A stretch of 20,602 nucleotides of DNA from positions 1 to 20,602 of the IMG/VR virus record IMGVR_UViG_3300023174_000749. One strand, 5' to 3'. This document shows, piece by piece, positions 9,775-14,380 of the stretch (position 1 is the stretch's first letter; each line of letters starts with the position of its first letter). The notes beneath the pieces are model-generated. The model saw only the letters and a program-made list of their open reading frames with translations, made no database searches and was not told the origin of the DNA. The translations under genes and the position numbers were made by a program. Source of the stretch: a virus.

Positions 9775-10716
9775 TTAGATGATCTCTTCTAAACCAAGTT
9801 CGCCAAGAGAGGTTGGGGTTATCTGCTTCATTCCGCCAACTTGGCTCAATTCGTAATTCGCCATAGATGACAAGTCGGTATTGGCAGTCTGAACAACAAG
9901 CTGCGCCTTTCCATACTGACGCTCGCGCTCAAGTGCATCTGCATGAGTTAGGGCCAATACAACATGACTGACATGCGGAAGTCGAAGTTCGTCACCAATA
10001 GCGTTGGTTGATGGAGGGAAGTCTACAACGTAGTTTGAGCGAGTTAGGCATTGTAGTTTTTCGATTACCTTGAGAGTCGTAGTGCTGGTTGTATCGAGAG
10101 TTGGGTAAACATCAATTTGCGCGATACCAGAAGAGTTACGTCCTTTGAAGTAATATGCTTGTGGTGTGCCAGTTCTGCTTTGATCCAGTAAATCTGCATC
10201 TTGAGATATGATTGTAGCAAGATCCATTGGAGTAAGTTCGTTGTCTCCCCAAGCAACGGAAAGTGGTGTTTCTACGTTTGTTCCAAGTGTTACTGTGCGC
10301 AATATTGATGTTGCTCCTGTTGGTGCTGGACTTGCTCCAACAGATTCTGTCCAATTAATAAGATCAGAACTTCTGTACATATCATCAAAATATAAAGTAG
10401 CATCATTTAATGACCATTTACTATATGCCGATAGCCAATTTATTGCATTACCATTACTTGCCGTAAAATTAGTTGAAGTTCCACCAGATGTCCTTGAATA
10501 AGTTCCATTTGATGTGGCATTTCCAGCACCAGAAATAATAACCTGACCAACATCCGTAATACCATACGTCGAATTGGTAACAGTCTCGCGCCAAGGCGCA
10601 AAGTTCCAAACTCGCCGATAGTTTAGGGCTGCTGCTTTCTGTAGAAACGTAAGCGTATCAGCGTCGGTTTTACCGATCTTTTCGCCTGCAAACTGAGCGA
10701 TTTCGGTGAGCGTCAT
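9775..10716 (-). CDS. tail-tube adaptor (T7 gp11-like, tail tubular protein A)
   Basis: The 313-residue product starts with helices characteristic of gp11-type adaptors ([13 protein letters not shown], then [20 protein letters not shown]) that dock under the portal. The C-terminal half continues with [39 protein letters not shown] and a long helix ([20 protein letters not shown]). T7 gp11 is 196 residues. Most of the excess is explained by a beta-rich insert at residues about 56-135 that resembles phage decoration domains. The gene lies directly before the nozzle gene with a four-base gap, the usual order. Its ATG follows the upstream stop without a gap (TAAATG). Its function is inferred from the helical pattern and synteny. 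Confidence 0.65.
10312..10551 (-). other. inserted beta-rich decoration-type domain in the adaptor
   Basis: This covers residues about 56-135 of the adaptor. It contains [18 protein letters not shown], an Asn/Ser/Thr-rich stretch with aromatic residues ([20 protein letters not shown]) and [14 protein letters not shown]. This composition differs from the helical flanks and resembles repeat domains seen in tail fibres. Confidence 0.5.
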
Positions 10717-12454: not shown

Positions 12455-12459
12455 CTCCT
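12455..12459 (-). promoter_or_regulatory. Shine-Dalgarno site of the repeat fibre
   Basis: AGGAG five bases before the ATG at 12449; its first two bases are the last two of the TAG stop of the preceding gene. Confidence 0.6.
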
Positions 12460-12682
12460 AGTTATTCCTATTTTTGATTACGTCCCAAGCCATTGAACAT
12501 ATAAGGCCAATAACGCCAGAGAGGGCTAGTATCTTAGTCCTTAGATGCTCCAGCGCATTAACCTTATTAGCAATGTCTGCGTAGTTTGCAAGTGACCTTT
12601 CGACCATAGAATAAAGCTGGACTTGACGCTCCTCCATCCTGGCGAGCCTAACTTCCATGTTCCATACTTGCTCTTCGCTCAT
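12458..12682 (-). CDS. holin-like small membrane protein
   Basis: The 74-residue product has a charged coiled-coil N-terminal part (MEVRLARMEERQVQLYSMVE) and one C-terminal membrane segment (about residues 50-69, ILALSGVIGLICSMAWDVI), followed by KNRNN. This layout, coiled coil plus one hydrophobic segment near the end, resembles XhlA-type holin-associated proteins and class III-like holins. Its start overlaps the stop of the small lipoprotein gene (ATGA), suggesting coupled translation, and its stop overlaps the ribosome binding site of the fibre gene. It could instead be a membrane anchor of unknown role. The holin reading is an inference from topology and neighbour. Confidence 0.5.
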   Translation of the reverse strand: MSEEQVWNMEVRLARMEERQVQLYSMVERSLANYADIANKVNALEHLRTKILALSGVIGLICSMAWDVIKNRNN

Positions 12683-12810
12683 GGCTTAGTAGCCCCCAAG
12701 TCAGATGCTGCGCCCATGTCTGAATATACAGGAAGTGGGTTGTTGTCAACCTTGCGTGGAGAACAGGAGTCAAAGAAAAGGCAGATTAAAACTAGGTTAA
12801 TAAATCGCAT
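12679..12810 (-). CDS. 43-residue putative lipoprotein (spanin-like)
   Basis: A short open frame from ATG at 12810 to TGA at 12679 fills an otherwise empty gap. The product begins MRFINLVLICLFFDSCSPRK: two residues, a hydrophobic stretch and a cysteine at residue 16 preceded by serine, as in lipoprotein signal peptides (the aspartate at -2 is unusual). The mature part has only 28 residues with several prolines (SPRK, NNPLPVYSD). Small proline-containing lipoproteins beside a holin-like gene are typical of outer-membrane spanins (Rz1-like), though no inner-membrane spanin is seen next to it. It overlaps the lectin gene end by 14 bases and the holin-like start by ATGA. No Shine-Dalgarno site is visible; it may depend on coupling. 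Confidence 0.5.
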   Translation of the reverse strand: MRFINLVLICLFFDSCSPRKVDNNPLPVYSDMGAASDLGATKP

Positions 12811-13588
12811 ATTTTGTATTTAGATATGTCTCGACTTGTTGGCGTTGTGGATTTGTAAGGACTCTGTTGTACATAACAATTTCGGCTACCTTGCCTTTAA
12901 ATGTGAAAGGGCCACTAGCAGTTGAAATACCAATACGGTAAGTATCATCATCATATGGAAAATTGCTATATACATTTGTATTGTCGGAATACATTAAATC
13001 TCCATTAATGTAGTTTCTCCAATCATTATCAGCACTTACCACGGAATAAACAGTCCAGAAATTAACAATATCATTTGGAGCCGTAAGCGGACCTTTTCTG
13101 TTTGCTGAACAAAAACCATCATAAACAGAGCAATTTGGTCCATACGGCATATGAGTTGCTTCACTAGCACCTCCAAAATCACCAAAAACAGGTCCGTTAT
13201 CATTTGCCTCATTACAAACATCATCAACGTACATAACGGCAAATGCAGTTGTTCCTGTTTCACCAACAATAGAACCAGAATTTAGAATGTTAAATGCTCT
13301 TGTGGAGCTACCGTTTAATGGCGAAAGGTTTATTACTGGATATCCATTCAAACTATTCGATATAAAAATTGGTGCTATGCCATTTGGATATGGTGAGCAA
13401 TATGCTGGACTTCCGCTCTGACTTCCGCTCTGATCTGCCCAAGCTGTTACGTTTGACCCAGAAAGAGTAACGCCTGCATTAGATTTTAGCCATAAGGATA
13501 GGCCAGATAAGCTGGCTGGCGAGAATGATGCACCACCACCAACCTTGCGAGTGCTCTGCATTCCTAGTCCTAAAGATAGTCTTGGCAT
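12797..13588 (-). CDS. LamG-like lectin-domain virion protein with MPRLSLGLG tag
   Basis: I place the start at 13588 (ATG, MPRLSLGLGMQSTRKV), not at the upstream ATG at 13840, because the earlier part overlaps the preceding gene and is not protein-like, and because the tag matches the start of the neighbouring gene. The 263-residue product continues with ASLSGLSLWLKSNAG, VTAWADQSGS and PVINLSPLNG, and ends in KGKVAEIVMYNRVLTNPQRQ followed by VETYLNTKYAIY. These are hallmarks of a concanavalin/LamG-like jelly-roll, a fold that often binds carbohydrates. The stop of the upstream paralogue lies four bases before this start. I infer a tail or capsid decoration that contacts host glycans. Confidence 0.7.
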   Translation of the reverse strand: MPRLSLGLGMQSTRKVGGGASFSPASLSGLSLWLKSNAGVTLSGSNVTAWADQSGSQSGSPAYCSPYPNGIAPIFISNSLNGYPVINLSPLNGSSTRAFNILNSGSIVGETGTTAFAVMYVDDVCNEANDNGPVFGDFGGASEATHMPYGPNCSVYDGFCSANRKGPLTAPNDIVNFWTVYSVVSADNDWRNYINGDLMYSDNTNVYSNFPYDDDTYRIGISTASGPFTFKGKVAEIVMYNRVLTNPQRQQVETYLNTKYAIY

Positions 13589-13592
13589 ATAA

Positions 13593-14078
13593 TCAAGCTG
13601 CGGTGATGGTGATGGAGGTAGACCAGCCAGAGGTGGGGATGTAGTTTGCGTCTGTGGATGAATTATTGCTTCCATTTGCAAGTACAAAATCATTGCTTTC
13701 ATCTCCCAAAAACCCATAAACTTTCCCAGCCCTCCAAAATGTTTCAGATGGAAGTGGATTAAAATATGTTGCTGTGAATGTTGTGTTTGGTGGAATAAGA
13801 ATATATCCGTATGGCGAGGTCGGATAATCGCCATCTCCATAGCCAGCTTCTTTTAGATAAACCAAGCCAGTAGCTATAAACATTTTATCGCTGGTAAGAG
13901 ATCCAGCTACCCTTGTTATTATTGAAGTAACTTTTGTATATGTTCCAGTTGGAACAGCGATATTATTGCCAGATATATTAACTGCGTTTGTGGTGGCTAC
14001 AACAAGAGGTCCTGCTGATGCGCCACTCTTAACCTTACTAACGGCTTGCACGCCCAATCCTAAGGATAATCTTGGCAT
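13593..14078 (-). CDS. MPRLSLGLG-tagged virion protein, beta-rich
   Basis: The ATG at 14078 gives MPRLSLGLGVQAVSKVKSGA; a TTG fifteen bases earlier is less likely. The 161-residue product shares its first nine residues with the next gene but then differs: a beta-rich domain with ATTNAVNISGNNIAVPTGTY, TSDKMFIATGLVYLKEAGYG and a C-terminal SGWSTSITITAA. There is no signal peptide. It is probably a small fibre or decoration protein that uses the common tag to attach to the virion. The family of the C-terminal domain is not recognised. It follows a 62-base gap with a hairpin and ends four bases before the lectin gene. Confidence 0.55.
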   Translation of the reverse strand: MPRLSLGLGVQAVSKVKSGASAGPLVVATTNAVNISGNNIAVPTGTYTKVTSIITRVAGSLTSDKMFIATGLVYLKEAGYGDGDYPTSPYGYILIPPNTTFTATYFNPLPSETFWRAGKVYGFLGDESNDFVLANGSNNSSTDANYIPTSGWSTSITITAA

Positions 14079-14097
14079 AAAATCACAATGCAATCAC

Positions 14098-14123
14098 CCG
14101 CCAAGGGATAGAACCTTTGGCGG
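14098..14123 (-). other. intergenic stem-loop
   Basis: CCGCCAAAGG and CCCTTGGCGG (minus strand) pair over ten positions with one A-C mismatch and a six-base loop. On the plus strand the mismatch becomes a G-U pair. It sits in the 62-base gap between the genes ending at 14141 and starting at 14078. There is no T-tract directly after it, so it is not a clear terminator; it may affect mRNA stability or processing. Confidence 0.5.
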
Positions 14124-14140
14124 TGTGGTTGCTTGAATCA

Positions 14141-14380
14141 TTAACCAGCTATGTAGCCGATCACCTTGCCAGTTCCAGCTGTGTAGCTGTTGAACTCGCC
14201 ATAGATGATGTTGCCTGAGCCAATTGTAACGCCTGTCAGAGTGCCATCATATTTACCGCTAATCGCGCTAAACGTGGTGTCTGATAGCATCTGGATCGCC
14301 CAGTAGCCAGCAGTCGCTGTTCCTTGCGTCCCTACGGAAAATCCGTATTGACCTTGGAACTTATCTAATGCGCGTGACAT
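14141..14380 (-). CDS. small Gly/Thr-rich hypothetical virion protein
   Basis: The 79-residue product is rich in Gly, Thr, Ser and aromatic residues and predicted beta (QYGFSVGTQGTATAGYWAIQ, GTLTGVTIGSGNIIYGEFNS). It has no cysteine, signal peptide or membrane segment. Its ATG overlaps the stop of the preceding small gene (TAATG), so the two are probably translated together. Placement after the capsid gene suggests a head decoration or head-tail part, but no family is recognised. Confidence 0.55.
   Translation of the reverse strand: MSRALDKFQGQYGFSVGTQGTATAGYWAIQMLSDTTFSAISGKYDGTLTGVTIGSGNIIYGEFNSYTAGTGKVIGYIAG

Follow-up and report, generated by a model that had tools for sequence, protein, structure and literature searches.

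The N-terminal peptide MPRLSLGLG is carried by viral proteins whose C-terminal domains fall into 18 families. We found that the peptide is conserved under selection, that near-identical domains occur behind different tags, and that the tagged genes are linked to, and co-occur with, a gene for a 79-aa protein (s79), an association which the original prediction had not noticed. This prediction had started from two adjacent genes, and the exchange system is widespread and larger than was seen there. It is somewhat probable, judging from sequence comparison, that the tag is a docking strand that would plug exchangeable adhesins into s79 on the virion.

The window is the whole 20,602-base virus record IMGVR_UViG_3300023174_000749 of IMG/VR (positions 1 to 20,602). 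The gene order on its minus strand is portal, scaffold-like, major capsid and several small genes, then s79 (14141..14380), the first tagged gene P2 (13593..14078) and the second tagged gene P1 (12797..13588), after which come a 74-aa one-TM (holin-like) gene (12458..12682), a fibre with TGxxNTAxG repeats and two tail-tube-like genes; the tail-tube and scaffold labels are our reading of position and sequence. P2 (161 aa, family 0) consists of the tag, a linker and a small beta-type domain, and P1 (263 aa, family 1) of the tag, a linker and a Laminin_G_3/ConA-like domain. Both open reading frames, 4 nt apart, lie on the minus strand where two adjacent genes sharing MPRLSLGLG had been predicted. 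Their tags (14052..14078 and 13562..13588, minus strand), defined by pattern match and selection analysis, account for exactly the 2 matches (14053-14078 and 13563-13588) of a degenerate MPRLSLGLG pattern in the window, against 0 expected from dinucleotide shuffles. The two 27-nt tags are 81.5% identical and all 5 differences are synonymous, where the prediction had spoken of mostly synonymous ones; over the first 57 nt the identity is 68%. The second product had been called LamG-like, and residues 176-248 of P1 do match Laminin_G_3 (PF13385, E 2.5e-6) with 28.2 bits, above the Pfam gathering threshold of 27.6 bits. For P2, profile searches gave no match in Pfam or PHROG, and its domain found nothing convincing among PDB sequences (best E 0.14). 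The 74-aa one-TM gene stands at the end of the tag slot in every syntenic locus, where s79, the tagged gene or genes and the one-TM gene keep a constant order; it serves as a slot marker and no part in the mechanism is claimed for it. A gene of 86-99 aa resembling it comes after the slot in L006, L062 and L065. It may also be noted that the tail-tube-A-like gene (9775-10716) holds an inserted domain (10297-10551, minus strand) homologous to tagged-protein family 5 (44.6% identity, E 2.5e-10), and that a relative of its product in L152 has no insert (232 vs 313 aa).

As the pattern search itself requires the tag residues, starts were fetched instead by the noncoding sequence that precedes the first tagged gene, and this tag-independent anchor gave 82 starts. 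MPRLSLGLG (tag A) was present in 55 of the 82 and a second form, MPSLSLN(V/I)GLNNGRKLPFGGG, in about 20. Over codons 4-9 of the 55 tag A starts pS is 0.596 and pN is 0.021; the pN/pS ratio then rises to 0.43 in the linker (codons 10-19) and 0.76 in codons 20-26. The predicted selection on the peptide is therefore strongly supported in starts chosen without the tag. Codons 2-3 (CCA AGA, window 14070-14078) behave differently from codons 4-9, with zero synonymous variation in the same 55 starts; the peptide cannot account for this, and perhaps a translation-start or RNA constraint applies there. Among 95 distinct tags, position 4 is Leu in 95, position 6 is Leu in 92 and position 8 is Leu, Ile or Val in 94, while the residues between these aliphatics are Ser/Gly, Gly/Asn and mostly Gly. 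The general form can be written M-[P/-]-x-L-[S/G]-L-[G/N]-[L/I/V]-x-[L/V/I/A], followed by a short basic Gly/Ser/Pro linker. No conserved Glu is present in residues 1-24, nor up to residue 18 in the tag variants, and the L/I-x-E cleavage motif that marks a capsid-targeting leader is not conserved after the tag.

The search for tag starts in other phage genomes, suggested with the original prediction, was positive. From IMG/VR we recovered 161 tagged proteins that are complete and distinct, and their C-terminal parts were sorted into 18 families by coverage-limited clustering, which replaced a coarse single-linkage clustering that chained families together. The domain types behind the tag include LamG types, BspA-type LRR, the YFTRAGVTD domain and small beta domains; Pfam found Laminin_G_3 in 21 and LRR_5 in 6 of 100 tagged representatives, and no Ig family among them. 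Tag A alone stands before 14 families, and each of families 0, 1, 3, 4 and 8 stands behind 3-5 tag types. In the clearest single case two domains share 99% identity over 224 aa; one follows MPRLSLGLGVQNLPKIGGG (tag A) in L016 and the other MPSLSLALGINNSRKPLGGG in L192, the tag of the latter being MPSLSLALGINNSRKP. Further domain pairs of 84-90% identity are found behind tags A, B and H. From these sequence pairs we conclude that domains and tags have been exchanged. Two tagged genes occur in 33 loci (three in 1 of these), usually with the small beta-domain gene first and the LamG gene second. The 27-nt tags of gene 1 and gene 2 are no more alike within a genome (identity 0.861) than between genomes (0.856, p 0.30), which rules out a recent tandem duplication, although over 57 nt a slight within-genome excess is seen (p 0.002). 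A tag confined to its first domains, or a simple recent duplication, had been named as the outcomes that would go against the prediction; what we found are 18 families and exchange of tags and domains.

The degenerate pattern matched 111 stretches in IMG/VR viral contigs, nearly all of them true gene starts, typically of the form MPRLSLGLG(V/A)Q..RKVGGG. Bacterial and archaeal genomes (257 Gb) gave 14 matches, of which 1 is a real tagged gene and the others are nearly all short or internal frames without a tag-like continuation. The real one lies on a Rhodobacteraceae MAG contig (L266) and has a LamG-like continuation; at L266:7400-8000 an 82-aa small protein is followed by this gene, which starts MPRLSLGLGLNLPRP and lies downstream of fibre-like genes. 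The 82-aa protein preceding the tag is not detectably s79. In isolate phages the capsid-to-tail DNA of the window, P1, s79, the type H relative of s79 and the YFTRAGVTD protein were all without match; P2 gave only weak matches (E 1 or worse), a LamG protein of the second group described below (group H) only a weak one (E 2e-5), and the capsid protein only distant relatives (roughly 23-31% identity). The tagged phages are environmental and, on our reading of the sample series, mostly freshwater-type contigs. No description of the MPRLSLGLG tag was found in the literature searched, which covered few subscription papers.

Directly upstream of P2 lies s79, a small beta protein and the candidate socket on the basis of synteny, co-occurrence, the second group, its model and a domain in L060. 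For the co-occurrence, loci were fetched by the capsid protein: s79 and tag are both present in 32, neither in 14, s79 alone in 3 and the tag alone in 0 (p 1e-9 by a Fisher test that ignores kinship). Two of the three s79-alone loci carry MPSLSLALG, which the search pattern missed, so the corrected counts are 34 with both, 14 with neither, 1 with s79 alone and 0 with the tag alone; the remaining case is L202, where the slot is broken. Among otherwise near-identical genomes, with capsid proteins at least 93% identical to that of the window, the tags MPQLGLGLRAN or MSRLGLGLG accompany a divergent s79 (62-65% identity), and tags A or B the common s79. The pairing is not strict, as MPQLGLGIS goes with the common s79 in L050 and L085. 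One and the same s79 sequence accompanies tag A in some loci and tag B in others, which would make these two probably equivalent and the specificity loose. The noncoding stretch between s79 and P2 holds an RNA hairpin (14081..14139, minus strand) with conserved, compensated stems, and it is strong (z -4.5). A hairpin occurs at the same spot in other lineages with different compensated stems (z mostly -4.4 to -7; -2.3 in L182), and its loop resembles a tRNA T-arm (GGTTCAAGTCC), while ARAGORN called no tRNA there.

The association recurs in group H, whose s79 is 34% identical and has different upstream genes. In all 29 of its 29 loci the next gene begins 3-4 nt past the s79 stop with a variant tag (e.g., MYLGLGLRLGG, MNLGLGLRLRS, MPSLSLGLGLHKNR) and its domain belongs to the same repertoire, with identities of up to 84% to the window's group; these lineages are not independent, and the query was taken from a tag-bearing locus. 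In L222-L248 of this group the distance from the s79 stop to the in-frame ATG or GTG is mostly 3 nt, and 4 nt in those with MPSLSLGLG; the 3-nt spacing suggests translational coupling. In a further lineage (L026, L251) the gene after s79 starts with MPKLGVGLN or MPKLGLGL. A 225-aa protein of L060, coiled-coil-like in its middle part, has the s79 domain at its C-terminus, and 8 nt after its gene the tagged gene begins. L250 has s79 without a tagged gene, and in L253-L255 three s79-like genes stand among neck genes with the tag absent. The last form a tandem triplet between head-tail adaptor Ad1 and head closure Hc1 (L253:1849-2590, likewise in L254 and L255), and are possibly small head or neck decoration proteins (phrog_34166). 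The contexts of the tagged genes themselves point to the head/neck module in some phages and to tail or fibre modules in others. Of the predicted common docking peptide for interchangeable decoration domains, the interchangeable domains are borne out; decoration of the capsid is not established because the contexts vary, and docking to a virion site is what we infer from the sequences.

Structure prediction gives s79 as a small beta protein (pLDDT 77.5). The fold comparison with PDB had no match at E below 0.09, a PDB sequence search had an unrelated enzyme as its best match (E 0.058), and the significant matches of the model were solely to unnamed or uncharacterised viral proteins. The 81-aa phrog_34166 is matched near full length by the s79 relatives of L235 (E 8e-4) and L249 (E 1e-3) and by the L253 copies (E 1e-23 to 4e-5), the s79 of the window staying below threshold; a profile comparison of the s79 alignment with L253 gave E 5.7e-10. 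No confirmed case of s79 was found in GTDB genomes. For a natural chain in which s79 reads through in frame into a tagged protein, the AlphaFold prediction reached pLDDT 33-42 in the s79 and tag parts and is uninformative.

To bring these results together, we propose that the tag would serve as a docking strand at the N-terminus. Aliphatic side chains take turns with small residues along it, which is the pattern of a beta strand, so that a strand with one aliphatic face could complete the sheet of a receptor, with the flexible linker and then the exposed domain following. The socket, of one type on the virion, would most likely be s79, and unrelated small adhesin domains (LamG/ConA, BspA-type LRR, YFTRAGVTD, small beta) could be plugged into it. 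If all of the contact is made by the tag, recombination in the linker could replace the domain that follows and leave the rest of the virion unchanged, and with one to three tagged genes per genome more than one adhesin could be mounted. The contact between tag and s79, the presence of both in the virion, the beta-strand geometry and the adhesin function are all parts that we infer. A wider form of this proposal is possible, though less likely than not: s79-family proteins, alone or as fibre tips, may be universal sockets for an L-x-L-x-L N-terminal strand, with a shared pool of adhesin domains moving between unrelated phages by acquiring the local tag.

The s79 association could stem from linkage and joint transfer of neighbouring genes, in which case the tag would dock to another virion protein (capsid, tail or fibre). 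The tagged genes do lie within one virion module with capsid, fibre and tail genes, s79 does occur without them, and in L266 the tag follows a gene with no detectable s79 similarity. Yet s79 and tag are jointly present or absent when the capsid gene is held constant, and their adjacency is kept though the neighbours differ between the window's group and group H, and we consider another receptor rather unlikely. It is less likely still that s79 is a dedicated chaperone, outside the virion, that shields the hydrophobic tag during expression. Such a role would suit the small size of s79 and the place of its gene just before the tagged one, 3 nt away in most group-H loci, and cognate chaperones of phage tail fibres have been described (PMC10579305), but it does not fit the fusion of the s79 domain to a coiled-coil-like protein in L060 or the position of the L253-L255 s79-like genes between connector genes.

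A similarly low probability is given to a tag that targets its proteins into the head, as a capsid-targeting leader of T4-like internal proteins would, or to the cell surface, with no display on the virion. Internal head proteins are likewise targeted by a short N-terminus common to unrelated proteins, and non-virion roles such as surface exclusion are also conceivable. The LamG, LRR and sialidase-type matches, however, fit exposed binding domains, no conserved L/I-x-E motif lies past the tag, and a relative of the tagged domains is inserted in a tail-tube-like protein. The tag could finally be a DNA hook, i.e. a short shared sequence for cassette recombination whose peptide has no role. Recombination of cassettes close to the tag is clear, the DNA of codons 2-3 is frozen and that upstream is conserved; but codons 4-9 are nearly saturated synonymously with their residues fixed, and variant tags keep the L-x-L-x-L pattern despite different DNA. 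The selection on codons 4-9 rejects the pure form of this model, and we hold it to be highly improbable. Docking into s79 is a plausible mechanism on these sequence data. If true, it would explain how uncultured freshwater phages change their surface-binding domains fast with no redesign of the virion, would give a function to many uncharacterised small phage genes (the s79 family), and would provide a short genetic tag for domain display on phages. It would also give a rule whereby the gene that follows an s79-type gene in these groups probably encodes a surface-binding protein, with its specificity past about residue 25.

Among known systems, T5 pb10 binds the capsid through a folded alpha-helical domain of about 70 residues and carries a single, fixed Ig domain (PMC5292684). 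Like pb10 and T4 Hoc, the tagged proteins would join a virion-binding part, here a candidate, to an exposed domain through a flexible linker; unlike them, they have about 9-10 conserved residues, no folded anchor domain, no Ig match and 18 domain families. Ig-like domains on phages (Fraser et al. 2006, as given in PMC5292684) and modular gut phage adhesins (PMC13370021) are similar in being promiscuous accessory adhesion domains that spread between phages, and a domain of the tagged pool is likewise inserted in the tail-tube-like protein of the window, but in the present phages it is entire genes that are swapped behind a constant, proposed docking peptide. Receptor-binding proteins of K1E/K1-5/SP6-like and Klebsiella KP32/KP34-like podoviruses carry short N-terminal hepta- or undecapeptides (MALxxLV); T4 gp10-like or anchor domains act as their receptors, and depolymerase tailspikes are the cargo (PMC6872550). 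Both systems place a very short N-terminal peptide with conserved aliphatics on otherwise different, exchangeable proteins; the podovirus peptide docks to an adapter, and the tag here would do likewise. The candidate socket, a beta protein of 79 aa, is unrelated to the podovirus receptors; LamG, LRR_5 and small beta domains take the place of depolymerase tailspikes as cargo, and the cassette recurs in several phage groups with different surrounding genes. Ten window genes scanned against Pfam and PHROG gave no gp10-like match, and because of this and the absence of depolymerase cargo we do not file the system as a member of the K1-5/SP6 type. The docking peptides of K1-5/SP6 and Klebsiella podoviruses (7-11 residues) may nevertheless serve as the closest working analogue.
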